From Verrucomicrobia bacterium IMCC26134 (GTDB lineage Bacteria > Verrucomicrobiota > Verrucomicrobiia > Opitutales > Opitutaceae): 64,000 bases of DNA. Below the pieces are notes generated by a model that saw only the letters and a list, made by a program, of their open reading frames with translations, searched no databases and had not been told where the DNA came from. This document shows, piece by piece, positions 6,723-48,693 of the stretch. The DNA is taken from the NCBI GenBank assembly GCA_000972765.1, contig CP011265.1:3035001-3099000 (forward strand). Reading direction: 5' to 3'. Position 1 is the stretch's first letter; every line of letters begins with the position of its first letter. The translations under genes were made by a program, and so were the position numbers.

Positions 6723-8804
6723 ATGTCCTTTTCCCGTTTCCATGCGCCGCTGTTCGCCGCGCTTGCCTCACTTCTTTCACTAAACGCCAGCGCCGCCGAA
6801 TCCCGCGACGATGGCTCCTATCTGCTCGAAAGCCTCGTCATCACCGCATCGCCCTTCGCACGCACTCAAGCCGAGCTTACTAGCGCCACCACCGTGCTTG
6901 GCGGCGAGGCTCTCGCCTTGCGCCAGCAAGCGACTTTAGGCGAAACTCTTGCCGGTCTGCCCGGGGTCAGCTCCAGCTACTTCGGGTCTGGCGCCAGTCG
7001 GCCCGTCATCCGCGGCCTCGACGCCAACCGCGTGCGCATCCTCCAAAACAGCCTCGATACCATCGATGCGTCGGCCACCAGCCCTGACCACGCGGTCAGC
7101 GTGGAGCCTTTTCTGCTTAAACGCATCGAGGTCGTGCGCGGCCCCGCTTCCCTCCTTTACGGCTCCGCCGCCGTTGGCGGCGTTGTCAATGTGATTGACC
7201 ACCGGATCGAGAGCGAGCTTCCGGTCCGCGACGTCGCTGGAACCCTGGAATCACGTTACGACACCAACACCGGGGGCTACGTCAGCGGGGGATCCGCTGA
7301 CGTAGCCCTCGTCCCCGACCGCGAGAAAAGCTCCGGCTTCGTCCTGCACCTAGACGGGGTTCGCCGCGAGGCGAACGACACCCATGTGCCAGGCCGCGCC
7401 GATCCTGCCGATCCCACGACCACCGGCGTAATTCCTAACACCGCCCTCGAAAGTCGGGGTGGCTCCATCGGCATTTCTTACGTTAGCACCGCCTTTAATT
7501 CCGGCCTCAACTACAACGGATTCGACACCACCTACGGCGTGCCCAACGAGCGCAACGTGGCCATAGCACTCCGCCAACGCCGCTGGGATTTAGCCGCCGA
7601 TATCACGCGTGATTTTGGCATCCTGACCGGCGCACGCGCCAAGTTCGGGCTCGCCGACTACGAGCACATAGAGCTTGAGGACGGCATGCCCGGCACGACC
7701 TTCACCAACGAGGGTTACAACGGCCGCGTCGAGTTGCTCCACCGCTCGCTCGCAGGCTTCACCGGCTCCTTCGGCACCGAGTTCGGCCTGAGCGATTTTA
7801 GCGCCCTCGGGACCGAGGCCTACCTCCCGACCAGCGAAACTCAAAATTACGCGCTCTTCCTCTTTGAGGAGGCGAAAAGCGGCGACTTCACCTGGCAGGC
7901 CGGCGCCCGTCACGAATCGCGCGAAATCCGGGCCGATGCCTTCGAAAGCATCCTGTTCCTGAATGGCGTGGACCCCACCCGCAGCTACCAGGTTCGCTCC
8001 GACTCACGCGATACCCTCAGCCTCTCCGGCGGCATAGTCTACGCGCTCACTCCAGCCTATGCACTGGCCTTCAACCTTACCCACACCACCCGTGCGCCGA
8101 ACACCCAGGAGCTCTACGCCGACGGCCCCCACCTCGGGACCGATGCCTACGAACTTGGCGACGCCACCCTTGGCGACGAACGGTCTCTCGGAGGCGAAAT
8201 GAGCCTGCGAAAATCCGATGGCTTCGTCACCGGCGCGCTCACCGTCTTCGCCAACCAGTTCGATGATTACATCTACCTTCAGGATACCGGCACAGCCGTG
8301 GATTTTGAAAACACCCCGCCTGATCCCACTGACGACATTCCCGAATACCGCTTCATCCAGCGCGACGCCCTTTTCTACGGCATTGAACTCGAGTCGGTCT
8401 TCCACCTCCACGCCGAGCGCGGACACACCCTCGATTTACGCTTCAACGCAGACTACACCCGTGCGCAGGAAACCAACGGCCCGGACCTCCCGCGCATCGC
8501 CCCGGTCAAAGGTCTGCTCGGCCTCGACTGGACGCACGGTCCCTGGCGCGCCGGCACCGACCTCCAGCTCGCGGCCACGCAAGCCCATCGCTCCCCCGGC
8601 GAGACACCCACCGATGGCTACGCGCTGCTCGGCGTGTCCTTCGGCTACCGCTGGCAAACCAAACCCGCTGTTTATAATATCTTCGTGCGGGGCGCCAACC
8701 TCACCGACACCGAGGCGCGCAACGCATCCAGCTTCGCCAACATCAAGGACATCGCCCCGCTCCCAGGCCGCGCCTTTACCTTAGGTATTCGCGCCACCTT
8801 CTGA
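6723..8804 (+). CDS. TonB-dependent receptor, ZnuD-like
   Basis: A 693-residue outer-membrane receptor. ATG 6723 gives a signal peptide ending LLSLNASA before AESRDD; the longer ORF upstream lacks one. A TonB-box-like segment (ESLVITAS) is followed by the plug domain (LGETLAGLPGVSSSYFGSGASRPVIRGL, then RIEVVRGPASLLYGSAAVGGVVNVID) and a beta barrel ending in FTLGIRATF with a terminal Phe. The blocks YGVPNE, RQRRWDL, KFGLADYEHIEL, and TTFTNEGYNGRVELLH resemble ZnuD-type zinc receptors, though the His-rich loop often seen there is reduced. Zinc as substrate is therefore inference. The small secreted protein upstream is likely in the same unit. Confidence 0.85.
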   Translation: MSFSRFHAPLFAALASLLSLNASAAESRDDGSYLLESLVITASPFARTQAELTSATTVLGGEALALRQQATLGETLAGLPGVSSSYFGSGASRPVIRGLDANRVRILQNSLDTIDASATSPDHAVSVEPFLLKRIEVVRGPASLLYGSAAVGGVVNVIDHRIESELPVRDVAGTLESRYDTNTGGYVSGGSADVALVPDREKSSGFVLHLDGVRREANDTHVPGRADPADPTTTGVIPNTALESRGGSIGISYVSTAFNSGLNYNGFDTTYGVPNERNVAIALRQRRWDLAADITRDFGILTGARAKFGLADYEHIELEDGMPGTTFTNEGYNGRVELLHRSLAGFTGSFGTEFGLSDFSALGTEAYLPTSETQNYALFLFEEAKSGDFTWQAGARHESREIRADAFESILFLNGVDPTRSYQVRSDSRDTLSLSGGIVYALTPAYALAFNLTHTTRAPNTQELYADGPHLGTDAYELGDATLGDERSLGGEMSLRKSDGFVTGALTVFANQFDDYIYLQDTGTAVDFENTPPDPTDDIPEYRFIQRDALFYGIELESVFHLHAERGHTLDLRFNADYTRAQETNGPDLPRIAPVKGLLGLDWTHGPWRAGTDLQLAATQAHRSPGETPTDGYALLGVSFGYRWQTKPAVYNIFVRGANLTDTEARNASSFANIKDIAPLPGRAFTLGIRATF

Positions 8805-8811
8805 TATCCGT

Positions 8812-8842
8812 CAGGCAGGCAAAGTTCTACTTCGCCTGCCTG
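8812..8842 (+). terminator. Hairpin after TonB receptor, possible terminator
   Basis: CAGGCAGGC at 8812-8820 pairs with GCCTGCCTG at 8834-8842 (9 bp, 13-base loop), seven bases after the receptor stop. There is no T tract directly after it, so strength as an intrinsic terminator is uncertain. Confidence 0.5.
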
Positions 8843-8951
8843 GCCTCAGTCCGACTTCGCTGCAACGGGGGCTTTCTTCGTTTTTCAAACATCCGCCTTT
8901 CCGGCTTTGCCCAGCGGCCCGCCTCCTGCTCACGCTTGCCTTTTCTTACTC

Positions 8952-10202
8952 ATGAGCACCTCCACCACGCCCGTCGCCCGCCCCAAGAAAGTCGCCTTCC
9001 TCACCGCCGGCGGCCTCGCGCCTTGCCTCAGCTCCGCCGTCGGCGGTCTCATCGAACGCTACAGCGAAATCGCACCCGACATCGAGCTCATCGCCTACCA
9101 CAGCGGCTACAAGGGCCTCCTCCTCGGCGACTCCTACAAAATAGGCCCCGCCGAACGCGCCGCCGCCCCGATCCTTCACAGGCACGGCGGCAGCCCCATC
9201 GGAAACTCCCGCGTCAAACTCACCAACGTCAAGGACTGCGTGAAGCGCGGCCTCGTCAAAGAGGGCCAGGATCCGCAAAAGGTCGCCGCCGACCAGCTCA
9301 TCAAGGACGGCGTGGACATCCTCCACACCATCGGTGGTGACGACACCAACACCGCCGCCGCCGACCTCGCCGCCTTCCTCGCGCGCAACAACTACGGTCT
9401 CACCGTCATCGGTTTGCCCAAGACCATCGACAACGACGTCTTCCCCATCCGCCAGTCCCTCGGCGCCTACACCGCCGCCGAACAGGGCGCGCGCTACTTC
9501 CGCAACGTCGTCTCCGAGCACAACGCCAACCCGCGCATGCTCATCATCCACGAGGTCATGGGCCGCGCCTGCGGCTGGCTCACCGCCGCCACCGCCGCCG
9601 ACTACCGCAAACTCCTCGACCGCGAGGACTTTGTCCCAGGCCTCGGACTCTCCCGCGCCAACCTCGACGTCCACGCCATTTTCATCCCCGAGATGGCCAT
9701 CAATCTCGCCGCCGAGGCCGCCCGTCTCAAGGCCGTCATGGATAAACACGACAACGTGAACATCTTCATCTCCGAGGGGGCTGGCGTGGAGGCCATCATC
9801 GCAGAGATGCAGGCCAAGGGCCAGGAAGTGCCCCGCGACGCCTTCGGCCACGTCAAACTCGATGCCATCAACCCCGGAAAATGGTTCGGCGAACAGTTCG
9901 CCAGGATGCTCGGCGCCGAAAAGGTGCTCGTTCAAAAATCCGGCTACTTCGCCCGCGCCGCCGCCGCCAACGCCGACGATCTTCGCCTCATCAAGAGCTG
10001 CACCGACCTGGCCGTCGAATGCGCCCTGCGCCGCGAGAGCGGCGTCATCGGCCACGACGAGGACCAGGGCGGTATCCTCCGCGCCATCGAGTTCCCCCGC
10101 ATCAAGGGCGGCAAGCCCTTCGATATCGCCACCCCTTGGTTCGTCTCCCTTCTCGCCTCCCTGGGCCAGCCAAAGGGCGAAAAAGTCCACGTCGCGCACT
10201 GA
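8952..10202 (+). CDS. pfp: Pyrophosphate-dependent phosphofructokinase
   Basis: A 416-residue cytoplasmic enzyme interconverting fructose 6-phosphate and fructose 1,6-bisphosphate with PPi as phosphoryl donor. Family motifs: GGDDT at 128-132, PKTIDND at 156-162 (catalytic Asp160) and MGR at 203-205. The second Asp of GGDDT (Asp131) and Lys157 are the residues that mark the PPi-linked type; ATP-linked enzymes carry GGDGS and Gly there. I chose ATG 8952 because the protein then begins just ahead of the first strand (KKVAFLTAGG). It is followed by a LapA-like gene after 91 bases. A reversible PPi enzyme suits a fermentative or energy-saving glycolysis. Confidence 0.93.
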   Translation: MSTSTTPVARPKKVAFLTAGGLAPCLSSAVGGLIERYSEIAPDIELIAYHSGYKGLLLGDSYKIGPAERAAAPILHRHGGSPIGNSRVKLTNVKDCVKRGLVKEGQDPQKVAADQLIKDGVDILHTIGGDDTNTAAADLAAFLARNNYGLTVIGLPKTIDNDVFPIRQSLGAYTAAEQGARYFRNVVSEHNANPRMLIIHEVMGRACGWLTAATAADYRKLLDREDFVPGLGLSRANLDVHAIFIPEMAINLAAEAARLKAVMDKHDNVNIFISEGAGVEAIIAEMQAKGQEVPRDAFGHVKLDAINPGKWFGEQFARMLGAEKVLVQKSGYFARAAAANADDLRLIKSCTDLAVECALRRESGVIGHDEDQGGILRAIEFPRIKGGKPFDIATPWFVSLLASLGQPKGEKVHVAH

Positions 10203-11499: not shown

Positions 11500-12850
11500 G
11501 CGCCCGCGCCCGCATTTCCCGCCACCTTGCCAGTCGCTCCGCGAGCTTGGCCTCGATGCCGGCTGTCTTGGGCGTGAAGAGCGTGAGCGGCTTCTCAAGG
11601 GCCGACTGCGGAGCGATGTTCTCCGGATAATCGTGGGCGTAGAGGTAGCCCTTGCCGTGGCCGAGCAGTTTGTTGGCTTTGCCACCCTTGTCGCGCATCG
11701 GCATCGGCACGCTTTGCACCGGCTGAGAGTTCAGCGCGTGTTTCGCCGCTGCGAGTGCCAGTGTCACGGAGTTGCTCTTGGGCGCGCAGGCGATGTGCAG
11801 CGTCGCATGGGCCAGCGCATACTCGGCCTCGGGCAGGCCCACAAACTCGCACGCATGGTGCGCCGCCACCGCCAGCGGCAGCGCAAGGGCGTCCGCCAGG
11901 CCCACGTCTTCGCTGGCAAGGATGACGAGCCGACGCGCAATGAAGCGCGGGTCCTCGCCGCCGGCGAGCATCTTGACCAGCCAGTAGAGCGCGGCGTCGG
12001 GGTCCGAGCCTCGGCAGCTTTTGATAAAGGCTGAAATCGTGTCGTAGTGCTCGTCCTCGTCCGCGTCGTAACGGATGCGACGTTCGCGCGCGAAAAGCTC
12101 CAGCTCGGCCGTCGTGATCGCCGCCCCTGGCGGCAGCCCCGCCACGATGACCTCGAGGGCGTTCAGTGCGCGCCTTAGATCGCCTTCGCAAAGGCCGGCG
12201 AGGTCCAGCAACACCGCCTCGTCCGCCGTGCAGCCCGAGGCGCCGAGACCGCGCTCGGCGTCGGCCAGCGCACGCGCCAGCACCGATGCCACGGCCGCAG
12301 GCGCGAGCGGCTCCAGCCGGAACAGGTGGCTGCGCGAGAGCAGCGGGGGATTGACGTAGAAACCGGGATTATGCGTCGTCGCCCCGATCAGGCGGATGTG
12401 CCCTTCCTCGACGTCGGGCAGCAGCAGGTCCTGCTGGGATTTGTTAAAGCGGTGCAGCTCGTCAATGAAGAGCAGCGTCGGCTCGCTCGGCCGGCGCCGA
12501 GCCGCGCCGAGTATCTCGCGCAGCTCGCCCACGTTGCTCATCACCGCATTGACCCGCACAAAACGACTGCCCGTCACGCGCGCGATCACCTCCGCGAAAC
12601 TGGTTTTACCGCACCCCGGCGGCCCGTAAAACACCAGGCTCCCGAAGCGATTTGACGAGATGAGGCGCGCGAGCAGGCCGTCAGGCTTGGTGAGGTGTTC
12701 CTGCCCCGCGATCTCGGCCAGCGTGCGCGGTCGCATCCGCGCCGCCAATGGCTGCGCCGCACGCGTGGTCTCGCCTGCCGGCTCGGCGGTTGGCTCCGAC
12801 AAGGGTGGCGCAGCATCGGCAAAAAGGTCAGGCAGGTCGTCGCGAGGCAT
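11489..12850 (-). CDS. rarA: Replication-associated recombination protein A (RarA/MgsA)
   Basis: A 453-residue AAA+ clamp-loader-like ATPase that acts at stalled replication forks. Recognised by PLAARMRPRTLAEIAGQEHL, Walker A YGPPGCGKTS, Walker B FIDELHRF and the C-terminal MgsA region (YLYAHDYPENIAPQ). It has a short Pro/Glu-rich N-terminal extension; in-frame ATGs at 12862 and 12850 and one further upstream are possible, and I use 12850 (MPRDDLPDLF), which gives a natural beginning. The extension resembles a clamp- or SSB-interacting tail (DLPDLF), which is inference. Monocistronic on this strand. Confidence 0.93.
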   Translation of the reverse strand: MPRDDLPDLFADAAPPLSEPTAEPAGETTRAAQPLAARMRPRTLAEIAGQEHLTKPDGLLARLISSNRFGSLVFYGPPGCGKTSFAEVIARVTGSRFVRVNAVMSNVGELREILGAARRRPSEPTLLFIDELHRFNKSQQDLLLPDVEEGHIRLIGATTHNPGFYVNPPLLSRSHLFRLEPLAPAAVASVLARALADAERGLGASGCTADEAVLLDLAGLCEGDLRRALNALEVIVAGLPPGAAITTAELELFARERRIRYDADEDEHYDTISAFIKSCRGSDPDAALYWLVKMLAGGEDPRFIARRLVILASEDVGLADALALPLAVAAHHACEFVGLPEAEYALAHATLHIACAPKSNSVTLALAAAKHALNSQPVQSVPMPMRDKGGKANKLLGHGKGYLYAHDYPENIAPQSALEKPLTLFTPKTAGIEAKLAERLARWREMRARALKP

Positions 12851-13013
12851 ATCGCCCGTCATCCAAGCGCCGCGCCGCACGGAATCGAACCTTAATCCTC
12901 TCCTCAACTCACACCGAGGCCCGGTCCTTCACCGGATTGTTACCGTAAAATGCGTCGCCACCAGGAGCACCAACGGTCACTCCCTTGTAACAACACCGCC
13001 CTTCCCCAACGCC

Positions 13014-13937
13014 ATGATCAAACGTATCCACGCCCTCTTCGCCTGCCTTTTCGCATCTTCCATCGCCTCCATCACCCTCGCCGCTGCTCCCCGCGCCGCG
13101 CACGTTTTCATCATCAGCTTCGACCAGGCCGCGCCCTCCAATATCGCCGCCGCCGAGATGCCCCTGTTTAAGTCGATGGTCGCCCGGGGTGCGCACACCT
13201 GGGAGGCCTACACCATCGTGCCGAGCCTCACCCTGCCCTCGCACACGTCCATGCTCACCGGCGTGGGTATCCAAAAACACCAGATCACCTGGAACGAGTG
13301 GGACGCCACCAAACCGCTCTCCGTGCCCACGATCTTCCAGCTCGCCAAGGCCCAGGGGCTTGGCACCGCCATGGTCGCCTCCAAGGCCAAGTTCAAAACC
13401 TTCGAGCAAGCGGGCGGCCTCGACACCTTCGTCATCCCCTCCGACTACCTGTGCAAAGGCATCGCCGCCGCCGCCGCTGAAATTCTGAAAAAGGAAACAC
13501 CCGCCCTCTTCTTTATTCACTTCGGCGACCCCGATTTCACCGGCCACCAATTCGGTGTAAACTCCCCCGAGAAAATGAAGGCCCTAGCCGAGTGCGACGC
13601 TGCGCTGAAGGTCATCCGCGAGGCCATCGACGCCGCCGGCATCGCCGATTCGAGCGTCATCATCCTCACGGCGGACCACGGCGGCCACGATCGCAGCCAA
13701 GCCGAGCTCGATGACATGGTGAGTCGAGGCCATGCGCCGCAAATCGGCACCCACGGAGACGCTAGGTCCGACGATGTCATCATCCCCTGGGTGGTTTGGG
13801 GCAAAGGCGTGAAATCCGGCTTCACCGTCACCGCCCCCGTGGTCCAATACGACACCGCCGCCACCGCCCTCTGGCTCCTCGGCGTCCCCCTCCCCGAAAA
13901 CTTCTGGGGCCGCCCCGTCATCAGCGCGTTTGAGTGA
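13014..13937 (+). CDS. Secreted alkaline-phosphatase-superfamily phosphodiesterase
   Basis: A 307-residue protein with a signal peptide (MIKRIHALFACLFASSIASI, cleavage near LAAAPRAA). It belongs to the type I phosphodiesterase/nucleotide pyrophosphatase group: first metal Asp in IISFDQAA, nucleophile Thr in LPSHTSMLTG, and the ILTADHGGHD metal motif. It is shorter than typical NPPs, consistent with the small bacterial form. Expected to act in the periplasm on phosphodiester or phosphonate substrates; the substrate cannot be stated. The ATG at 13014 is chosen because it opens the signal peptide. Confidence 0.88.
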   Translation: MIKRIHALFACLFASSIASITLAAAPRAAHVFIISFDQAAPSNIAAAEMPLFKSMVARGAHTWEAYTIVPSLTLPSHTSMLTGVGIQKHQITWNEWDATKPLSVPTIFQLAKAQGLGTAMVASKAKFKTFEQAGGLDTFVIPSDYLCKGIAAAAAEILKKETPALFFIHFGDPDFTGHQFGVNSPEKMKALAECDAALKVIREAIDAAGIADSSVIILTADHGGHDRSQAELDDMVSRGHAPQIGTHGDARSDDVIIPWVVWGKGVKSGFTVTAPVVQYDTAATALWLLGVPLPENFWGRPVISAFE

Positions 13938-14025
13938 TCACCGTCCGTCGCACGCCATCAGATCAGAAGTCCGTCCGCTTGCGCTTGCTTAGCTCGGCGT
14001 GGAAAAACACCGTCAATACAGCTCC

Positions 14026-16017
14026 ATGCAATTGGCGATACCTCTCAAACACCTCGGCTTCCTCCTCCCCGGCCTCGACGACAGCCTGCCGCCCGCCGAA
14101 ATCGCCGCCCGCCTGCATGCCCACTTTGCCTTCGCCGGTGACATCACCGTGACCATCACAGAGGGCGTCGCCTATGTCACCGGTGACGAGGCCGCCCTCG
14201 CCAAACGCGACGAGGCCGCCCGTCTCGCCGAACGCGCCGCCAAACGTGCCCGCGACGGCGACTTCGCCCGCGCCGTCGAGCTCTACGAACGCGTCCTGCA
14301 ACTCCACCCCACCCTCGCCACCGCCCACCGCGAGCTCGCCATGTCCCTCATGGAGCTGGGAAGCCTCGACGCCGCCAAAGACGCCCTCATCGACGCCATC
14401 AAACTCGCCCCCGACGACGCCTGGAGCTTCGTAGTCCTGGGCAACGTCTACGCCCGCCTCGCCCAGCCCGCCCTCGCGAAGCGTTTCCAACTCCGCGCCC
14501 TCGAACTCAAACTTGGCGACGCCTGGGCGCTCAACGGCCTCGCCGCCGCCGAGATGGCCCTCGGCGAAACGGACGCCGGCATAGCCCACTTCGCCGAGGC
14601 CACCCGCCTTCATCCCACCTTCGCCAATGCTTGGCTGGGCAAGGCCATCGCAGAACATAACGCCGGACGCCCCGCCGACACGGACCTCACTCTCCGCGGC
14701 CTGTTCGCCCATGCACGTGCCGCCGACACCCGCGACCGTCCCGTATTCACCCAGGCCCGCCTCCTATTCGTCGAGGCTCAGACCGCCCTCGCCGCGCAGC
14801 AGGAATCCGACGCATTCAAAACCACGCAGGCCCTTCGCGCCGAGGTCGAAACCATTTCCGGTCACGCCGTAGATATCGTGGAGGAAAAGCTTCCCGCCGG
14901 CATCGCCGGCCGCGCCCAGATGGCGTGGAAACACGGCCGCGCGCGCCACCGCATTTCGATATGCCTGCAAGCCCCCCCCCCCCAATCACTTGCGCTTCAC
15001 CTTCAGTGTCACGAGCTGACGCACATTCAGCTCGAAGCTGAGGCCCGCGCCGTCGGTCTAAACCGTTTCTTCGCCACCGACCCCGCCACCCAGGCGGCCG
15101 CCCTCGCCGACCTCGCGCCCGACATCAGGCGCATCACGAAACACTTCCCGCGTGCCGACGCCGCTGCCGAACTCGCCACCGAACTCATAGCCGGCACCTG
15201 CGGACTCGCGTTCAACGTCCCGCTCGACATCCTCATCGAGCGCCGCCTCCACGCCACCCGCCCCGCGCTGCGCGCCATCCAGCTACTCTCGCTGCAACGC
15301 CTCGCCCGGGAAGCCGCCGACGCCACTCTCCGTCCCGAGATCCGCAAGATCACGCCGCCGAAAATCCTCCGCATCGCCTGCGCGCTTAACGGCCTCGCCG
15401 CCCTCTTCCTCGACGACCTCAGCGGCGGTGCCACCGACACCTTCGTTCCCTACGCCGCCCTCGACACCGCCGACACCTCCCGCCGCCTCTGGACCCGCTG
15501 GCAGGAACTCGCCGCCGCCTGGACCCCCGCCGCCGAATACACGTGGGTGGATGAGTTCGCCGACCTCCTCGGCATCCGCGTCTGGTTCACGTGGAAACCC
15601 GACCCCGGCCCCTCCGCCACGAGTGGCGACACCGCCGACTTCCCGCCCCGCGTCAAAGAGCCCGACCTCACGCTCGAAGGCACGACCAACCCCGAGCTAC
15701 TCCGCGCCAAACACCCGGCAGCCGTCTGGTTCCTGCTCGATGCGCTGAAGCGTTTCGCCGCCATGAGCACGCCACAAATCCACGCACTCACGCTGGAAGT
15801 GGCGCGCGTCGGCCAAGAAGGCCTGGACTACGCCAGCGCGGATAAAAAATACACCCTCCGCGCCCTCCCCGGCGAACAGTTCAGCGGCCTGCAGCTCATG
15901 TGCTTCATGTTCGCCGGCTTTAAGCGCATCGCCCCCGACATGGACGCGAAGATGGATCTCGAGGAGCCATTCTTGGCAGCGCTGCAGTTATTTAACCAAC
16001 AACGAGGTGAGGGATAA
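14026..16017 (+). CDS. TPR protein with an HExxH (zincin-like) motif
   Basis: A 663-residue protein, no signal peptide. Residues about 60-260 are built from tetratricopeptide-like helix pairs (blocks such as AVELYERVLQLHPTLATAHRELA and AHFAEATRLHPTFANAWLGKA). The middle carries CHELTHIQLEAEAR, an HExxH motif (His329, Glu330, His333) followed by acidic residues, which suggests a metallopeptidase fold. The C-terminal half is helical and unassigned. A 12-C homopolymer lies only 27 bases before the HELTH codons. An in-frame GTG at 13999 is an alternative start. The gene is very GC-rich like its left neighbours, and only three bases separate its stop from the McrB-like ATPase. I do not know a described function. 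Confidence 0.7.
   Translation: MQLAIPLKHLGFLLPGLDDSLPPAEIAARLHAHFAFAGDITVTITEGVAYVTGDEAALAKRDEAARLAERAAKRARDGDFARAVELYERVLQLHPTLATAHRELAMSLMELGSLDAAKDALIDAIKLAPDDAWSFVVLGNVYARLAQPALAKRFQLRALELKLGDAWALNGLAAAEMALGETDAGIAHFAEATRLHPTFANAWLGKAIAEHNAGRPADTDLTLRGLFAHARAADTRDRPVFTQARLLFVEAQTALAAQQESDAFKTTQALRAEVETISGHAVDIVEEKLPAGIAGRAQMAWKHGRARHRISICLQAPPPQSLALHLQCHELTHIQLEAEARAVGLNRFFATDPATQAAALADLAPDIRRITKHFPRADAAAELATELIAGTCGLAFNVPLDILIERRLHATRPALRAIQLLSLQRLAREAADATLRPEIRKITPPKILRIACALNGLAALFLDDLSGGATDTFVPYAALDTADTSRRLWTRWQELAAAWTPAAEYTWVDEFADLLGIRVWFTWKPDPGPSATSGDTADFPPRVKEPDLTLEGTTNPELLRAKHPAAVWFLLDALKRFAAMSTPQIHALTLEVARVGQEGLDYASADKKYTLRALPGEQFSGLQLMCFMFAGFKRIAPDMDAKMDLEEPFLAALQLFNQQRGEG
14972..14983. 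repeat. C12 homopolymer inside the TPR/HExxH gene
   Basis: Twelve consecutive C residues within the coding frame (codons GCC CCC CCC CCC CAA). Loss or gain of one C would shift the frame immediately before the HELTH motif. Such tracts slip during replication and are also error-prone in sequencing. In this copy the frame is open (ON). Confidence 0.9.
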
Positions 16018-16020
16018 CTT

Positions 16021-17700
16021 ATGAACCTATGGATCGTGCCAGCCGCAGATAATGCATCGTTAGATAACATACCCAAGTCCTTGAGTGAACCAGTCCCGAG
16101 TTCGGTTCTGGAGAAGCATGGACTAACCAACGGAAGCCACGCTTGGGGCGCCAGAAGAGGTCCCGCTAACGACAATAAATTCGAAGACATGAGGGCGGGT
16201 GACATCTGTATTTTTTACACCCAAACCTCACGGAGTGACGGCTCCAAGAAATTCAATTGGGCCGGTCGTGTAAGCCAATATGTGTGCTCATCAGATTTGT
16301 CTCAAGATATCTGGGGATCACCAAACTTCGAACACGTCTACCTGCTGGACGAAGTTTGGCCCATATCTATTTCGCTCGACGAATATGCCAGCGCGACCGG
16401 TTACCAAGCAGCGGCACCTAAAGGCATCTTTCGAGCATCCGATGACAACCTTGAGCGGATAGGCAACATAGAGGCTTGGGCAAGAGGGAGACCAAACACC
16501 GCACGTAACTCGCGTCCTAGAGAGATTCCCACAAACATGATGCAACCAATATTAGATTTTATCGCAGCACGTGGAATAGATTTCAGCCTAGTAACACTGT
16601 CTCGTTTCTACGCATCCCTCCGCGCCAAACCCTTCGTTATACTTGCAGGCAATTCCGGCACCGGAAAATCACGCCTAGTCCGCCTCTTCGCCGAGGCCTG
16701 TGGCGCCACGGTTGAAAACGGTGGTTTCCACCTAGTCGCTGTGCGCCCCGACTGGAACGACAGCGGTGATTTGCTGGGCCACCTCGACCTCGAAAATCAA
16801 TTTCGACCGGGCCAGATTTTCAACGCGCTACTTATCGCCCACGCGGAGCCGAAACGTCCGGTGTTCGTGTGCCTCGACGAGATGAACCTCGCCCGCGTCG
16901 AACATTACTTCTCCGACTTCCTTTCCAAGATCGAGTCCCGCCGCCGCACGGACGATGGGCGTGTTATCACCGATCCGGTAATACACGCCGAAGAGCTGAC
17001 CTCCAAACTCCTCGAACGCGTCCCCGATCGCCTGAGTCCTGTGCTGCAAGAATTACAATCGACAGGACGAGGCATCGATTTACCGCCCAACCTCCTCATC
17101 GTTGGAACCGTCAACATGGACGAAACAACGCACGCATTTAGCCGCAAGGTGCTTGACCGTGCCCACACTCTCGAAATCGAAGCCGGTCCACTTTCAACGC
17201 CGCCTTCCAGCGCGAAAGTCACGCCTCCGACTCCGCAATCCATCGATCTCAGGGCAACTTTTCTAACCGCGTCCGACATGATGCCAGATGCGGAGAACGC
17301 CTCGAAACTCCAACGTGTCTCCAAGCTCTTAGATGAACTTAATGATACGCTCGCTGAGGCCAGTTTACAGGTTGCCTATCGCACTCGGGACGAGGCGGCT
17401 GCATTCTTCATCCATGCCACAGCTGCAGGCCTATCCAATGAGGCTGCAGAGCATGCTATCGTGATGCAGAAGATTCTGCCCCGAGTGCAAGGCAGCTCGC
17501 CGCGCCTGGCACGGGTCCTTCAAGAGTTGTTAAAAAGGTTCAATCCTGGAGCAGCGCTCGACGCCGATGACCCCACCAAACTCTCCGCTCAACTGCTCGC
17601 GCTGCGTCGTGACGCCGTAAACCCGGCCTTGGTGCGCAAGCTCGCAGGGATGTGGTTGGTATACATTGAAGAGGGCTTCACTTCATTCTGGATCGCCTGA
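16021..17700 (+). CDS. McrB-type AAA+ NTPase with N-terminal PUA/EVE-like domain
   Basis: A 559-residue motor subunit of a probable modification-dependent (type IV) restriction system. Residues 1 to about 150 resemble an EVE/PUA-like reader domain (DICIFYTQTS, then FNWAGRVSQYV and EVWPISISLDEY), a fold that recognises modified bases. The AAA+ domain follows with Walker A GNSGTGKS (210-217), Walker B VCLDEMN (Asp286, Glu287) and NMDE at 365-368, the position of the McrB signature, then FSRKVLDRA. GTP preference is known for McrB but not shown here. It starts three bases after the TPR gene and ends eight bases before its nuclease partner. Base composition is clearly less GC-rich than its neighbours, suggesting transfer. 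The EVE assignment is moderate; the McrB assignment is strong. Confidence 0.85.
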   Translation: MNLWIVPAADNASLDNIPKSLSEPVPSSVLEKHGLTNGSHAWGARRGPANDNKFEDMRAGDICIFYTQTSRSDGSKKFNWAGRVSQYVCSSDLSQDIWGSPNFEHVYLLDEVWPISISLDEYASATGYQAAAPKGIFRASDDNLERIGNIEAWARGRPNTARNSRPREIPTNMMQPILDFIAARGIDFSLVTLSRFYASLRAKPFVILAGNSGTGKSRLVRLFAEACGATVENGGFHLVAVRPDWNDSGDLLGHLDLENQFRPGQIFNALLIAHAEPKRPVFVCLDEMNLARVEHYFSDFLSKIESRRRTDDGRVITDPVIHAEELTSKLLERVPDRLSPVLQELQSTGRGIDLPPNLLIVGTVNMDETTHAFSRKVLDRAHTLEIEAGPLSTPPSSAKVTPPTPQSIDLRATFLTASDMMPDAENASKLQRVSKLLDELNDTLAEASLQVAYRTRDEAAAFFIHATAAGLSNEAAEHAIVMQKILPRVQGSSPRLARVLQELLKRFNPGAALDADDPTKLSAQLLALRRDAVNPALVRKLAGMWLVYIEEGFTSFWIA

Positions 17701-17708
17701 TTTAAGCG

Positions 17709-20246
17709 ATGTCTGCCCTACTGCAGCTCACACTTTCCGAAGGCGTTGAGCTGCGAATCAACGCTGGGGCATCCGGCGTTACCCCACCGGTAAACATCGC
17801 CAGTTCCATCGCGCTGGAACTCGGTTTCGGCATCACGGGCGACCTCAACGTAGACGAAAAATCGCTTTCCGGATCGGGTCTGCTCGCAATTCCTCCGCTC
17901 TTCTTCGAACAAACGCGCTATGAAATCGAAGTGACGGACAACCTGGAAAACGTCGGTTCGCGTCCGACTTTATTTATTAACGGGAAAGACCTGCTCTCAC
18001 AGCGATGGCGCGCCGGTGGCTACGCCTTTACCACGCTCAACTATGAGAGCGAAGTCGGCTATTCACGTCTGGAACTCCGCCGCGACGGGCGCTTGCTTGC
18101 AGCGTGCCGGATCGAGGTCTTCCCGAGTAAGCTCGACTACAAAACCGATTACCTCGAGTTGCGTGCATCACTCGAGGCCGAGGTGCGAATGCTCACCGCC
18201 ACCTTGTCCGGACGCACCTTTCAACAACGCGGCCAAGTTCGCGCACCAGGTGGCCCGACCGACCTGGAATGGCTCATTCAACTCCGCGAACTGTTCGACC
18301 AGTGGATTCGCTCCATTGAGTTGATCGACCGGAATCCGCGCCGCCGCCTCGTCACAGAAGCCAACCTTGTTCCGCTAGCGCAGGTGCGGCGTCCAGGAGC
18401 AGTCACGCGCAAGTATCTCCGAACCCACCCGGAGTGCCTGAAGTCACAAAGTAACGGCCCGCTGCGAATAGCCGGTAAAAGCTGGACTACCGCACGCCTT
18501 CCCGACGCACGCCGAAAGCTGGATCTACTCACCCCCGAGAATCTCTTTGTCGCGCACGCCTGCCAGCAAGTCGGGCGACGACTCCGTAGCATTCAGGCTC
18601 GATTGAGCCACGAAACATCCGGCGGCGAAGCATGGCAGAAGTTTATTTCGTCTGCCCAAACCACACTCCTGCGATTGGAGGCCCGAACTTTTCTAGCGGA
18701 GATAGTCACCCCGGAACACGCACCGTCCATTACCTTGGCGATGCACCTTGCTCCAGGCTACCGAGAGTTTTTGCGCGCTTGGAACCGCCTCCTTTCCCGA
18801 CTCACACTAGACGGCGACGCACTGAAGCTGAGTGAAAAGAACGTAGCTACGCTCTACGAACTCTGGTGTTTCGTCGCGCTTGGTAATCTGTTGGGAAAAG
18901 AGCTCAACGCAGTTCCCCGCACACCGGACTGGCTCGCTATTGATCGTCGTGGAGTCGCGCTCAATCTACGGAAAGGAAGATGCTCAGAGCTGGTATTCGA
19001 CACCGATTCCCGCGAAATCACCGTAAGCTACAACCGCTTTGAACGCACTCCGACAGGTGACTGTCGACCCGACAACACGCTGGAAATTAAACACAGCGGC
19101 TCAAAAGGACGCGCCTTTCGATACGTTTTTGACGCAAAATATCGTCTCCAAAACGACCAAGCCTATCTCGAGAACCATGGAGCGCCGGGCGTGCCGATGG
19201 ACGTGATAACGAAGATGCACGCCTACAGAGATCAAATCGTCACCGAACTCCTAAGTCAGCAACACGGCGTTGATGAAGAATCACTGGTCTGGGATCTAGG
19301 CAATCGACGCTACATTCAACAAACGGTCGGTGCCTTCGCCTTGTTTCCCTACGCAGGCACCGACGCCGATCAGAACCGTTTCTTCAAATCTATCCACCAA
19401 GTCGGGGTAGGCGCACTGCCGTTCCTGCCAACGCGCCAAATCGAAGTGACGACTTTCGTGCGTCGTATGCTCTCTACAACTGACGAGAGCGTAGAGGACC
19501 AATCAATCGAACTGAGCAGTGCGGAGGAAAAAGCCCGCATTGTTAAAAGTCACGAATACGGCCTGCTCGGCATCGTCCGCGACCAAGACCAATTGGACTA
19601 CGCCCTAAAGCACCGGATTTATCACATGCACTACACGGCACAGCAGCTGCGTCTGCGTGCCGACTTCATCGTGCTCATGATCAGCGCCTCGAAAGCAAGA
19701 GGAGCCCATGGCGCACTCTACCAAGCGAAAGTGCGAAGTGTGAATTTCGGCGCTCGTGGAGAAATTGCACCTTACCCACCCGGCGACGCCAACCGGCAAA
19801 AAGCCTGTAACTCATACGTCTGGTTCGAAACCGAAGAATGGAAGCCCATGCGGACGCCATTAGTCTATTCAGGTCACCCGCCGCATTTCGGCTTCACCAC
19901 CCGCTTGGCCTTCGAAAACGCCCGGGACGTGCCCGACCTTCTCCTCGTGCGAGAACCCGAACGTAGAATGGCAGATGAACTACGAAATCACGGAGCAACG
20001 GTAAGCGTTTTTGATATTACTTCATCCACTGCATCGCCCTTCGATTTAGCATCACTCCGGTTGAGATTAGTAGCGCGGTGGCCGGACTCCTCCCGTGAAC
20101 TCGAGATACGCTTCAATCCGAAACTCTCTGAATTCCGCTGGATGGGGTGTTCAACCAGTTGGGCTGATCTGATGTTTAAAACTCAGACCGTTATGGATGA
20201 AATGAGGGAAATGGCCACGAACAACTCACTTGGTTCAGCAAGCTAA
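17709..20246 (+). CDS. DUF2357-type PD-(D/E)xK nuclease, McrC-like partner
   Basis: An 845-residue protein, presumably the cleavage subunit working with the McrB-type ATPase upstream. Residues 1 to about 230 are a beta-rich DUF2357-like region, followed by helical segments (about 270-400). A PD-(D/E)xK core is visible: Pro454-Asp455 (RPDNTLEI) and Asp475-Ala-Lys477 (YVFDAKYR). The C-terminal 260 residues form an extra module (YHMHYTAQQLRLRADFIVL, then HGALYQAKVRSV and SYVWFETEEW) that I cannot name; its strand pattern could be another PUA/ASCH-like reader. GC content matches the McrB gene and is lower than flanking DNA. AT-rich DNA follows the stop and may mark the edge of the transferred segment. 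Confidence 0.8.
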   Translation: MSALLQLTLSEGVELRINAGASGVTPPVNIASSIALELGFGITGDLNVDEKSLSGSGLLAIPPLFFEQTRYEIEVTDNLENVGSRPTLFINGKDLLSQRWRAGGYAFTTLNYESEVGYSRLELRRDGRLLAACRIEVFPSKLDYKTDYLELRASLEAEVRMLTATLSGRTFQQRGQVRAPGGPTDLEWLIQLRELFDQWIRSIELIDRNPRRRLVTEANLVPLAQVRRPGAVTRKYLRTHPECLKSQSNGPLRIAGKSWTTARLPDARRKLDLLTPENLFVAHACQQVGRRLRSIQARLSHETSGGEAWQKFISSAQTTLLRLEARTFLAEIVTPEHAPSITLAMHLAPGYREFLRAWNRLLSRLTLDGDALKLSEKNVATLYELWCFVALGNLLGKELNAVPRTPDWLAIDRRGVALNLRKGRCSELVFDTDSREITVSYNRFERTPTGDCRPDNTLEIKHSGSKGRAFRYVFDAKYRLQNDQAYLENHGAPGVPMDVITKMHAYRDQIVTELLSQQHGVDEESLVWDLGNRRYIQQTVGAFALFPYAGTDADQNRFFKSIHQVGVGALPFLPTRQIEVTTFVRRMLSTTDESVEDQSIELSSAEEKARIVKSHEYGLLGIVRDQDQLDYALKHRIYHMHYTAQQLRLRADFIVLMISASKARGAHGALYQAKVRSVNFGARGEIAPYPPGDANRQKACNSYVWFETEEWKPMRTPLVYSGHPPHFGFTTRLAFENARDVPDLLLVREPERRMADELRNHGATVSVFDITSSTASPFDLASLRLRLVARWPDSSRELEIRFNPKLSEFRWMGCSTSWADLMFKTQTVMDEMREMATNNSLGSAS

Positions 20247-20320
20247 AGTTGTTACTCAACCGCTGTATAATTTAAAATATCAGCGTAGTAAGCGTTAAAC
20301 ACGACCCATACCGAAATTAA

Positions 20321-21178
20321 GTGCCTCTCCACGACGCCCATAACCATTTTCAGGACGCGGCGCTCGCTCACCACCTCGACCGCATCGCCTCCGCCTGGCC
20401 CACCATCGCCGGCGAGCGTGGGGATATGGTCGTCAACGGCACCTACCCCGACGACTGGGCGGACGTCGCCGCCCTCGCCGTGAAACACTCTTTCGTTCGC
20501 CCCGCCTACGGCATTCACCCGTGGGACGCCGGCGATCCCCGCCCCGCCAACTGGCTCGCACACCTCACTGCCTTCCTCGACGCCGACCCTCGCGCCAGTG
20601 TCGGCGAGATCGGCCTCGACCGCTGGATGCTCGACTCCGCCCGACCCGACGACCCGCGCCTCGCTGGCGTCCGCCGCGCGCCGATGGCCGAACAGGTCTC
20701 GATCTTCCTCCCCCAGCTCGCCCTCGCCGCCACGCGCGACCTGCCCGTTACGATCCACTGCGTGCAAGCCTTCGGCGAACTGCTGCCGCTGCTCCGCGCC
20801 CATCCGCGCCCGCCGCGCGGCTTCCTGCTCCACGCCTACGGCGGCCCCGTCGAACTCGTGCCCGAACTCGTTGCGCTGGGCGCGTGGTTCTCCTTCAACC
20901 CCGCCTTTCTCGATCCTCGAAAAACCCGCCAGCAGGACGTCTTCCGCGCCCTGCCCGCCACTCGACTGCTTTGCGAAACCGACGCCCCCGCGATGATCCC
21001 GCCGCAAACCTGGCGAACCCACAAACTTCCACCCGCCGCCGACGGCGCACCCGTCAACCACCCCGGAAACATCGAGGCCGCCTACACCGGCCTCGCCACC
21101 CTGCGCGGCGTCGAATTCGCCACGCTCACCGCGCAGATTGCCGACAATTTCAGCCGCTTTTTTGGCCAGGCCCGGTAG
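20321..21178 (+). CDS. tatD: TatD-family metal-dependent hydrolase
   Basis: A 285-residue TIM-barrel hydrolase; family members act as DNases/exonucleases in DNA repair. Metal ligands are visible in order: DAHNH near the N-terminus, Glu in VGEIGLD, His in TIHC, His in LLHAYG and Asp in ETDAP. The start is GTG at 20321; no earlier in-frame start gives similarity. The AT-rich 74 bases upstream separate it from the restriction module. Its 3' end overlaps the convergent tcdA by 29 bases. Confidence 0.88.
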   Translation: MPLHDAHNHFQDAALAHHLDRIASAWPTIAGERGDMVVNGTYPDDWADVAALAVKHSFVRPAYGIHPWDAGDPRPANWLAHLTAFLDADPRASVGEIGLDRWMLDSARPDDPRLAGVRRAPMAEQVSIFLPQLALAATRDLPVTIHCVQAFGELLPLLRAHPRPPRGFLLHAYGGPVELVPELVALGAWFSFNPAFLDPRKTRQQDVFRALPATRLLCETDAPAMIPPQTWRTHKLPPAADGAPVNHPGNIEAAYTGLATLRGVEFATLTAQIADNFSRFFGQAR

Positions 21179-46794: not shown

Positions 46795-46811
46795 CCCCCC
46801 CCCCCCCCCCC
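46795..46811. repeat. C17 homopolymer upstream of a secreted repeat protein
   Basis: Seventeen consecutive C residues lie 98 bases before the start of the 594-residue secreted protein, in the 248-base spacer 46661-46908. The surrounding DNA is AT-rich for this window and probably carries the promoter. Length changes could alter promoter spacing. The stretch is also liable to sequencing error. Confidence 0.92.
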
Positions 46812-46908: not shown

Positions 46909-48693
46909 ATGAATCCACTACGCACTACGCTAATCACCTGCCTACTAGCAACCTCCATGGCATCAACGGTTTTTGGCGCCGATTCATCCACGATCGAGAC
47001 GTCTCTCCGTCGCACAGGGGTTGATACCGATGCCACTGGCAAAATCAAAGTCTCCTTCTCGGACAAAAAACGGGAGTTTTACCTCCAACTGGCTAAGCTC
47101 AATCCGTCCGCCGCATTTCAGATCGAGGTCGATGGCATCGTCGAAGCCGACTTCACGACCAGCCGGAAGGGCGAAGCCATGCTATTCTTCCGTCCCGCCG
47201 GCTCCCCCGCCCTCGACTTCGAACCGCGAGGAAAGACCGTGCGCGTTTTAAACAATAGCGCTTCCATCCTGGAAACCGTCGTCTCTGGCGCCGGTGAATC
47301 CCTCGGTTCTGTCGTCACCGAAAGCGTCCGCCTCGACCTCGGCTCCGCACCGGGCGCCACCGGCACCGCCACCGCCAAATATACGCTCGATAAAAAAGGC
47401 CGCCGCACCCTGAGCATCTCGCTCCTAAAAGCCGGCGTCGGCCCGTTTTCCCTCTACGTAGGCGGACTCCCGCGCGGCAACTTCACCGTCCACGGCACCA
47501 AGGCCAGTCTGCTCCTTTCGGGTTCTCTGCTCACCTTCGACCCTCGCGGCCAGGTGGTTGATGTCGTCGGTCCTGCCGGCATCGTCTTCTCGAGCGAACT
47601 CACCGCCGCCGTTACTGGCGTCAACACCGCCAGCCCCACGTTCGGGATAGTCATCCTGCCCGCCAAAGCCTCGGCCGGCTCCGGCCAGGCCAAGGCCAAG
47701 CTCGTCATCGATGATCACGCCCGCAAACACTTCTCCATCGAACTCGAGGACGTCCCGACCGGCACCTATGATTTGCTCGTGGACGACATCGACGTCGGCG
47801 ACATCACCGTGGTTTCCGACAGCGGCTCCACCAAGGGCGAACGTGAATTCACCAGCAACGATATCTCCGACGAAGGCGAACTCCCCCTCACCTTCGATCC
47901 CTCCGGCCGCACTCTGACCGTCAGTCAGGGCGCCACCATTTACTTCTCCGGTCCCTTCAACCCCGCCGCGCCCGCCGCCTCAGGCGTCTCCAACTTCGGG
48001 GCCGCCACCCGCATCCAGGAGGATTTAAGCTCCACCGGCATCGATAACGCAGGCACCGCCAAGGCCGATTTCCGCGTCGATCGCAAAGACCGTGCCCGTC
48101 TCAATATCGAGCTCGAGGACGTGGCCGCCGGCACCTACGGCCTCACGATCGGAGGCAACTCCAGAGGCAACATCCAGACCGTATCCGTGGACGGTCGTGT
48201 CGGCGGCGAAATCGAGTTCGCCTATCCTTCCGAAGCAGGTAAATCCACCCTCTCTTTTGATCCCCGCGGCCTGCTCATCGAGATCAGCTCCCCGGCCGGC
48301 GTTTACTTCTCCCACCTCTTCGGCGGCGGCACCGCAACCGGCGGCTCCGGCGGCACTGTCATCCCCTTCGATCTACGTCTCCCTCTGCTCAGTTCCGGAC
48401 TCGACGCCGATGCCACCGCCAAGGCCAGCTACCGCCAGAAATCCTCCGGCGCATTGAAGCTCGGGATCGAGACCGAAAAACTGCCCGCCGGCACCTACCA
48501 AATCTGGGTCGGCGGCACGCAACGCGGCACTCTCACGGTCGCCGCCATCGCCGGCGAAACCTCAGGCCAGTTCACCTTCGCCATTGGTGGCGACGAGACT
48601 GCGGACGCCTTGCTCGATTTCAGTGTGCTCGACCAAGAAATCTCCATCCGCCAGGGCGACACGATCTACTTCAACCGCACGTTCGCGCCCTGA
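46909..48693 (+). CDS. Secreted protein made of about five repeated domains
   Basis: A 594-residue protein with a signal peptide (TTLITCLLATSMASTVFGA). The mature part consists of about five imperfect units of roughly 110 residues (near 30-135, 137-240, 245-355, 365-475 and 485-594). Each unit reads roughly: D-x-(A/T)-A-K, a charged stretch, IELEDVPxGTY, VGGxxRG, a Gly/Ser-rich loop, LTFDPRG and an aromatic xxIYFSxxF end. The pattern suggests small beta-sandwich domains. I recognise no family; no LPXTG-type or PEP-type anchor is seen, so it is periplasmic or released. A C17 tract lies upstream and a strong terminator downstream. Confidence 0.75.
   Translation: MNPLRTTLITCLLATSMASTVFGADSSTIETSLRRTGVDTDATGKIKVSFSDKKREFYLQLAKLNPSAAFQIEVDGIVEADFTTSRKGEAMLFFRPAGSPALDFEPRGKTVRVLNNSASILETVVSGAGESLGSVVTESVRLDLGSAPGATGTATAKYTLDKKGRRTLSISLLKAGVGPFSLYVGGLPRGNFTVHGTKASLLLSGSLLTFDPRGQVVDVVGPAGIVFSSELTAAVTGVNTASPTFGIVILPAKASAGSGQAKAKLVIDDHARKHFSIELEDVPTGTYDLLVDDIDVGDITVVSDSGSTKGEREFTSNDISDEGELPLTFDPSGRTLTVSQGATIYFSGPFNPAAPAASGVSNFGAATRIQEDLSSTGIDNAGTAKADFRVDRKDRARLNIELEDVAAGTYGLTIGGNSRGNIQTVSVDGRVGGEIEFAYPSEAGKSTLSFDPRGLLIEISSPAGVYFSHLFGGGTATGGSGGTVIPFDLRLPLLSSGLDADATAKASYRQKSSGALKLGIETEKLPAGTYQIWVGGTQRGTLTVAAIAGETSGQFTFAIGGDETADALLDFSVLDQEISIRQGDTIYFNRTFAP

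Follow-up and report, generated by a model that had tools for sequence, protein, structure and literature searches.

The window analysed here, 64,000 nucleotides (nt) of contig CP011265.1 from Verrucomicrobia bacterium IMCC26134 (positions 3,035,001 to 3,099,000), carries a gene for a tetratricopeptide repeat (TPR) protein with an HExxH motif, followed on the same strand by a McrB-type ATPase gene and a DUF2357 nuclease gene (Table 1). The initial annotation had singled out this arrangement, a TPR protein ending 3 nt before the McrB ATG with the nuclease gene next, as a possible three-gene defence system. All of these open reading frames (ORFs), together with that of tatD behind them, are intact, and the TPR, ATPase and nuclease domains were confirmed. 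Comparison with homologues revealed that the TPR/HExxH gene is the constant part of such loci, that the restriction genes behind it are exchanged, and that its reading frame is open in some copies (ON) and broken in others (OFF), mostly at a poly-C tract. With confidence a little better than even, we read it as the phase-variable, zincin-like first gene of accessory defence operons, which would license or control exchangeable effectors.

Table 1 Features of the accessory unit and of the genes on either side of it in the window
Feature	Position	Strand	Basis or remark
Alkaline-phosphatase-superfamily gene	stop at 13937	+	ORF and Pfam
Accessory unit (phosphatase stop to tatD)	13938–20321		missing in its entirety from the corresponding site in genome G001
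TPR/HExxH gene, 663 amino acids (aa), intact (ON)	14026–16017	+	ATG at 14026 picked by homologues; GTG at 13999 is an alternative start
TPR solenoid and following helix, residues 55–258	14188–14799	+	Pfam TPR, AlphaFold model, matches to solved TPR proteins
Coding poly-C tract, 12 C	14972–14983	+	26 nt 5′ of the HExxH codons; site of frame breaks in homologues
HELTH (HExxH) motif	15010–15024	+
NVPLDILIE, conserved final E a candidate third metal ligand	15214–15240	+	comparison of homologues
C-terminal domain, conserved more widely than any other part; also in split and partial members	15679–15990	+
Junction TAA, CTT, ATG	16015–16023	+	common to locus L032 despite a different effector gene there
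McrB-type AAA+ ATPase, 559 aa; Walker A GNSGTGKS, NxD-type motif NMDE	16021–17700	+
McrC-type nuclease, 845 aa: DUF2357 (109–358) and PDDEXK_7 (381–549)	17709–20246	+
tatD	from 20321	+	Pfam TatD

The TPR/HExxH gene and its McrBC-type partners

The two genes behind the TPR/HExxH gene have the expected features of McrB and McrC. The ATPase contains an AAA+ domain (Pfam AAA_5 above the cut-off), a Walker A motif and the signature NMDE, which fits the NxD variant of the McrB signature with a following E (PMC11090510), and the nuclease combines DUF2357 (3e-38) with a PD-(D/E)xK domain (PDDEXK_7, 9e-27). Because this combination is the architecture of McrC (PMC11090510), the pair is predicted to be a McrBC-type (type IV restriction) system. 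In PADLOC, the ATPase matched PDC-M26A at 7e-52 and the nuclease matched PDC-M26B weakly (0.018). The label 'EVE-like', given to the McrB protein at first, found no backing, as neither Pfam at E ≤ 1 nor phmmer against the Protein Data Bank (PDB) returned an EVE family.

To place these genes in the genome, we compared tatD loci within the genus, in which tatD is present in 15 of 15 genomes. The best full-length match to the window's tatD outside its own genome is in G001 (86%), with a partial match in G004 (87%). DNA homology to G001 stops at 13937, the phosphatase stop, and restarts at 20322, the tatD start, with 30 bp in between in G001, and the TPR/HExxH gene and McrBC are thus jointly missing there. 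Homologues of the TPR, McrB and McrC proteins were also absent from all 10 same-genus tatD loci fetched (of 14 other genomes with tatD; G002, G003, G004 and G009 were left out), 8 of which extend at least 3 kb past the tatD start. Because the G001 site lacks 13938–20321, the comparison indicates that the three genes are one accessory unit. The G001 site is not pristine: its phosphatase-superfamily gene beside tatD is cut down to the last codons (L142, 3708–3946), which points to more than one event, and the window/G001 pair alone fits either a gain in the window or a loss in G001. No direct or inverted repeats of at least 8 nt are shared between 13881–14030 and 20201–20360.

Base composition had suggested a different history, with the contrast in GC content between the TPR gene and the pair marking an insertion point. 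The contrast itself is real: GC content at third codon positions is 0.80 in the phosphatase gene, 0.82 in the TPR gene, 0.58 in mcrB, 0.60 in mcrC and 0.84 in tatD, and the drop, at about 16000, falls between the TPR gene and mcrB. An insertion of a foreign pair next to a host TPR gene is ruled out, as G001 lacks all three genes and a GC-richer TPR gene precedes a GC-poorer module in five of five other Verrucomicrobiota loci measured (L032, L033, L034, L035 and L098). The step is therefore internal to a single accessory unit, as neither the TPR gene nor McrBC is present at G001 or in the 10 loci.

TPR repeats scored above the Pfam cut-off in the window's TPR/HExxH protein, and TPR proteins dominated the fold search with the full-length model. 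The HELTH motif noted at the outset is present and is retained as HExxH in 18 of the 19 full-type homologues compared (defined below; L033 has lost it and L039 lay outside the comparison), indicating that the motif is not there by chance. A second stretch, N-x-P-x-D...E, is likewise conserved in 18 of 19, with a stop codon at the E in L059. At the level of motifs these are the zincin HExxH and a candidate third ligand, the E having the putative ligand role. Folded alone, the HExxH domain gave a confident model (pLDDT 86), the best VIA-align matches of which were weak: SPRTN (6mdx; Z 5.5, root-mean-square deviation 4.8, 126 aligned), 3o0y (Z 5.3), abylysin (Z 5.1) and the zincin-like 3e11 (Z 4.4), in a top Z range in which chance arrangements also occur. 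Because these structural matches are weak, the protein is a putative zinc peptidase at the level of its motifs.

Other searches with this region returned little. Foldseek with the HExxH domain found no match at E ≤ 0.001 in the PDB or BFVD; three BFVD rows had a probability of 1.00, two of them named as phage CobT/VWFA-domain proteins, and none reached that threshold. An M78 peptidase is absent from the VIA-align rows listed, which does not by itself exclude one, and Pfam at E ≤ 1 gave TPR families, BON and Alkyl_sulf_dimr and no peptidase. For the HExxH and C-terminal parts, sequence searches found no relative of solved structure, the one hit being a designed repeat protein at E 0.68. None of the three proteins of the unit had a helix-turn-helix (HTH) match that would suggest a DNA-binding repressor (Pfam E ≤ 1; ORFs of at least 90 aa).

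Exchange of restriction modules behind a constant first gene

Homologues were sought in genome contigs, in relatives, in the organism's own phylum and order, in the phyla of G453 (L036, a Desulfobulbaceae assembly) and G1126 (L040, titled Alphaproteobacteria), and in plasmids, phages and viral contigs. Among relatives, orthologues were found in G005, G011 and G083 in addition to the window's own gene, and the other matches were to the TPR stretch. Counting split and partial relatives, matching genomes numbered 8 of 387 in the phylum, 7 of 372 in the order, 11 of 395 in the G453 phylum and 2 of 398 in the G1126 phylum. Scans of viral contigs gave a single contig, L050 (L077 is the same contig), with two of the four scans empty. 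We defined as full-type those members with TPR repeats, a peptidase-like domain and the C-terminal domain, allowing for contig ends, which gave 20 (the window, L031–L039, L050, L051, L053, L059, L060, L078, L079, L080, L098 and L099; L004 and L059 are one place and were counted once, as L059). TPR-only matches (L005–L030 and L040) were left out and served as a control, split, C-terminal-only and peptidase-domain-only relatives (L052, L054–L058, L061, L081–L087, L103 and L104) were kept apart, and repeated records (L001–L003, L041–L049, L062–L077, L088–L097 and L100–L102) were omitted.

In total, 17 of the 20 full-type loci have at least 2.8 kb of downstream sequence; L031, L039 and L059 are shorter, with L031 showing the start of an AAA_16 ATPase gene. 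Restriction- or defence-type genes lie downstream on the same strand in 16 of the 17 and fall into six kinds of module: McrB with McrC/DUF2357 (the window, L051 and L079), a Schlafen-group-3 (Schlafen-g3) helicase (L032, L036, L037, L038, L053, L060, L078 and L080), type III Mod and Res (L033 and L035), an EcoRI-type methylase with a GmrSD_N/HNH protein (L034), a type ISP enzyme (L098) and a mixed cluster of AAA_21, SLFN_AlbA_2, Mod and ResIII after a gap of about 0.6 kb (L099). In 9 of these 16 loci the TPR gene is separated from the effector by a MazG-like gene (L036, L037, L038, L051, L053, L060, L078, L079 and L080). Modules overlap the TPR gene or lie up to about 1.5 kb away, and of 12 junctions printed, 8 either overlap or leave no more than 9 nt between the genes (3 nt in the window, TAATG/TGATG in L036–L038 and ATGA in L098). 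The initial annotation had named as its refutation homologues found regularly without restriction genes, beside tatD or the same left-hand genes; homologues are not regularly found so, and left flanks vary among the loci looked at.

Two of these loci contained further genes of interest. In L099, a small HTH-like ORF (XRE-type by eye; 8550–9145) separates the TPR gene from the restriction module and is possibly a repressor targeted by the peptidase. L053 (8128–13640) comes from a 22-kb record labelled Microcystis phage Mwe-JY31, in which TPR/HExxH, MazG-like and Schlafen-g3 genes accompany a ParA-like gene; the record may represent a plasmid, or a phage-plasmid, that bears a defence cassette.

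Exchange of partners was visible at the DNA level. The window is 88% identical to L032 over 13977–16143, with no further blastn match, and its match to L033 is confined to 13983–15972 (81–86%, in two pieces), the three loci carrying the unrelated modules McrBC, Schlafen-g3 helicase and type III, respectively. In L032, about 40 codons of a McrB-like start follow directly on the TPR stop, behind the same TAA-CTT-ATG junction as in the window, and then comes the helicase gene. L036 and L037 represent one chromosomal locus in two related genomes (flanks 82–92%, TPR region 94%), in which the helicase-gene stretch 12293–14265 has no blastn match, with the S24-like C-terminus and both flanks still homologous; because both helicases are Schlafen-g3 by Pfam, the comparison identifies this part as having been exchanged for that of a divergent relative. 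Between L078 and L080, identity is 94% across the TPR gene and on into the MazG gene, and falls to about 66% in the helicase.

Seen from the side of McrB, the association looks different. Homologues of the window's McrB in the same order occur in 7 of 293 genomes, including its own, and in none of the other six does the TPR/HExxH gene lie within about 1.5 kb. Because these six do not adjoin the TPR/HExxH gene, the dependence is one-sided: the TPR gene comes with modules, and McrB does without the TPR gene. A McrBC-specific subunit is ruled out by these homologues and by the module swaps. Of the three-gene system first proposed, the single unit thus stands, given the empty site in G001, and the idea of a dedicated third McrBC subunit falls.

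These distributions bear on two other explanations. In the first, which we consider quite unlikely, the TPR/HExxH gene is a stand-alone defence or counter-defence gene behind which modules merely collect, its 3′ end being a recombination site in defence islands. The sharp ends of homology near the 3′ end of the TPR gene would be expected in this case, as would McrB homologues that do without it and the intact phage-borne copy in L050, which lacks restriction genes and lies on the strand opposite capsid- and terminase-like genes (names assigned by sequence). Mere accumulation fits poorly with modules that are downstream on the same strand in all 16 loci, with stop-start overlaps and with the one unit at the empty site. 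In the second explanation, improbable in our estimate, the protein is a co-effector protease that the restriction module unleashes on sensing invading nucleic acid and that kills or arrests the cell, the C tract serving to shed a costly toxin. A TPR protein with a peptidase is a known effector layout, costly traits are commonly phase-variable, HExxH is conserved and the protein stays constant as modules vary; nevertheless, methylases, helicases and McrBC have no common mode of sensing, type III and ISP enzymes need no such protease to restrict, and one copy (L050) has no module at all. Control of exchangeable effectors remains the reading that we prefer.

Split and partial relatives extend the association with defence genes. 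In L057 (1012–11076), two genes stand directly ahead of BREX genes, one for a peptidase-like protein of 287 aa that lacks HExxH and the other for a TPR/C-terminal protein of 370 aa; behind them come an unassigned 266-aa ORF, BrxB, BrxC (NF033441) and a PglX-like methylase (below the model cut-off), the 266-aa ORF standing where BrxA would be expected. The C-terminal domain is next to type III genes on the opposite strand in L054, and other relatives adjoin a divergent Schlafen-g3 gene (L056), are flanked by two McrB-type clusters (L104), lie on a plasmid, a few kb downstream of McrB/DUF2357 genes (L052), or have a partial HSDR_N gene about 3 kb away (L081). No restriction gene was seen in L055, L058, L061, L086, L087 and L103, in which contig ends intervene or neighbours were unscanned. 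In the G453 phylum, L082–L085 are peptidase-domain relatives without the C-terminal domain, two of which (L082 and L083) lack HExxH; restriction genes were not evident by eye near any of the four.

Poly-C tracts and frame states

An unbroken tract of 7 to 15 C is present in 13 of the 20 full-type copies (6 ON and 7 OFF), at one of two places. At the place used in Verrucomicrobiota, ON copies have C12 (the window, L034 and L098), C13 (L031) or, in the viral-contig copy L050, C8, and OFF copies have C12 (L032), C15 (L033), C9 (L035) or an interrupted run (L039). On the Desulfobulbaceae side, the tract is at about codon 445–450, with C8 in the ON copy (L036) and C7 (L037 and L038), C9 (L078 and L080) or an interrupted run (L079) in the OFF copies. 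Nine of the 11 broken copies have a single frame break each, located at the tract, where two long open frames meet (the genes of L039 and L035 end at contig ends). The other two broken copies have no tract and show an in-frame stop (L059) or several breaks (L060); three intact copies also lack one (L051, L053 and L099). L031 and L035, contigs of one assembly prefix, have TPR genes that are 93% identical, one ON and one OFF. The first frame of OFF copies ends about 0.35–1.0 kb before the end of the gene (L039 is cut by its contig). The break is +1 in five copies (L032, L033, L078, L079 and L080) and −1 in four (L035, L037, L038 and L039). A fixed programmed frameshift is ruled out by the occurrence of both signs.

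Tract length was of little use as evidence. Synonymous shuffles of the window gene reached C12 in 1,431 of 5,000 cases, and shuffles reached a gene's own longest run in 592 (L098), 349 (L031), 392 (L050) and 174 (L036) of 5,000. Because shuffles attain C12 so often, the tract alone proves nothing, and the evidence is in the frame states. The features of a contingency locus (a coding repeat, differing lengths and both frame states) are all present across homologues, rather than among clones, and the tract-located frame states fit phase variation, in which slippage would switch the gene live. In Campylobacter jejuni, poly-C/G tracts of at least 7 are a recognized class of phase-variation tract (PMC4965091).

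Two further explanations concern the tract. The breaks could be homopolymer sequencing or assembly errors, or programmed ribosomal frameshifts, with no phase variation involved. This would suit long C runs, which are error-prone, in draft assemblies and with tract lengths unremarkable for the codon use, but breaks also occur at interrupted tracts (L039 and L079) and at C7–C9 runs, both signs speak against a fixed programmed shift, intact members occur with and without tracts, and each copy has one break, at the tract; we give this explanation a low probability, of roughly one chance in several. Alternatively, the tract might act only in cis, a frameshift in the first cistron uncoupling translation of the restriction genes, with the encoded protein secondary. 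That genes nearly touch and that the OFF frame ends well ahead of the gene end are both compatible with such an effect, which we nonetheless consider quite unlikely, as low dN/dS and the conserved HExxH point to a working protein. Nine pairwise comparisons gave 16 half-gene dN/dS values, all within 0.10–0.29; eight of the comparisons included an OFF gene, drawn from five of the nine OFF copies, and a few codons each side of the tract were excluded. For an OFF gene, dN/dS mostly reflects history before the break. Phase variation of a functional protein is our preferred account of the tract.

In its 4.0 Mb, the source genome has 15 separate C/G tracts that are 10 nt or longer, and slippage may switch a wider set of genes in this organism. 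One run of 33 C lies on the reverse strand of the same genome (G000:C1:2470541-2470573). A second and longer poly-C run in the window (17 C, 46795–46811) is intergenic, about 100 nt before an ORF starting at 46909, where promoter-level phase variation is possible.

Proposed role and relation to known systems

We propose that the TPR/HExxH gene is the constant first gene of an operon whose effector slot is exchanged, often with a MazG-like gene in between. Slippage in the poly-C tract would bring into frame, or out of it, the zincin-like domain in Verrucomicrobiota and the C-terminal part on the Desulfobulbaceae side. In the ON state, the TPR would be a binding or sensing arm and the HExxH domain a probable zinc peptidase, and the protein would license, activate or control the downstream effector, perhaps through cleavage of a regulator or of that effector. 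In the OFF state, the protein would be truncated and, because genes overlap or nearly touch at most of the junctions inspected, effector translation may drop as well. A population could in this way hedge between defended and undefended cells. More tentatively, and with confidence clearly short of even, the family may be an undescribed one of phase-variable TPR metallopeptidases that provide a general subunit to license or control unrelated restriction systems, which would be plugged in as exchangeable cassettes and armed or disarmed, whichever the occupant, by one slippage.

Several observations weigh against the reading of a phase-variable controller. The evidence comes from assembled sequence. 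The best zincin-fold match is weak (Z 5.5), the HExxH codons of L033 are deleted right behind its C15 tract, and split forms ahead of BREX (L057) and in L055 and L103 have no HExxH. An intact C8 homologue occurs without restriction genes in the viral contig L050 (7095–9053), the sole exception among the 17 loci. The control that favours a constant partner is limited: none of 27 control loci of unrelated TPR proteins matched the effector or MazG queries at 1e-3, compared with 13 of the 17 loci tested alongside them (five partly by their own query sequence), but 26 of the 27 are only 2.2–3.7 kb long, and the queries missed L098 and L099, whose module kinds were outside them, as well as L031 and L050. 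A C12 run is not improbable in the window gene, the pre-break history in the dN/dS values tempers what they say of OFF genes, and several copies are close relatives and hence not independent. OFF copies are from draft assemblies, several titled as metagenome-assembled, in which homopolymer error is possible. Finally, no promoter-like site was found on the + strand 5′ of the TPR gene.

If the proposal is true, restriction systems are handled as swappable parts under one stochastic switch. It also names a testable protein family ahead of type III, type IV, ISP, Schlafen-g3 and, in split form, BREX systems, and the C-terminal domain would be a marker for finding new defence operons. The frame-switching tract, the MazG-like gene and the swapping of effectors all go beyond the initial annotation.

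The full-type family is unnamed in Pfam, NCBIfam and PADLOC, in which it gave only TPR-repeat matches, and a description of this gene combination was not found in open-licence PMC full texts. PADLOC candidates matched full-type proteins (the window, L036, L050, L051, L053, L098 and L099) through their TPR stretches, at best at 6.4e-5; the TPR half of the split member L081 matched PDC-M71B (PDC-M71 being a TPR protein) at 2.5e-11, and the L053 helicase matched PDC-S41, a Schlafen-type helicase, at 6e-19. The DefensePredictor study (PMC13092281) includes MazG as a predicted, unvalidated defence domain and mentions TPR in legends to its system figures, and its systems may overlap with the TPR/HExxH family.

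Among described systems, McrBC as surveyed in the CoCoNuT census (PMC11090510) shares the McrB-type AAA+ protein with an NxD motif and following E and the DUF2357-PD-(D/E)xK partner; the window unit differs in having a TPR/HExxH gene in front. The main text of that census mentions TPR once, in a figure legend on CoCoNuT associations, and contains neither HEXXH nor MazG. Slipped-strand frame switching is known for restriction genes, including type I and III methylases, a type IIG gene and BREX pglX (PMC12707154, PMC9122589, PMC8713573). In those cases the switched gene belongs to the restriction system itself, whereas here it is a shared accessory gene behind which the module is swapped.

The nearest published logic, comparable in position, is that of the Cap controllers. 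CapW/BrxR, CapH with CapP, and CapK with CapS sit beside diverse immune operons, CapK and CapS also next to restriction-modification systems (PMC13373217, PMC9122589), and CapP is a protease that is activated by single-stranded DNA and cuts the repressor CapH (PMC13373217). As with these controllers, a constant gene stands beside unrelated immune operons (16 of 17 loci, six kinds of module). The window unit differs in having no HTH match, no M78/IrrE Pfam match and no demonstrated link to DNA damage, in encoding a large TPR protein within the same operon as its effector, and in carrying a coding poly-C frame switch inside the shared gene.

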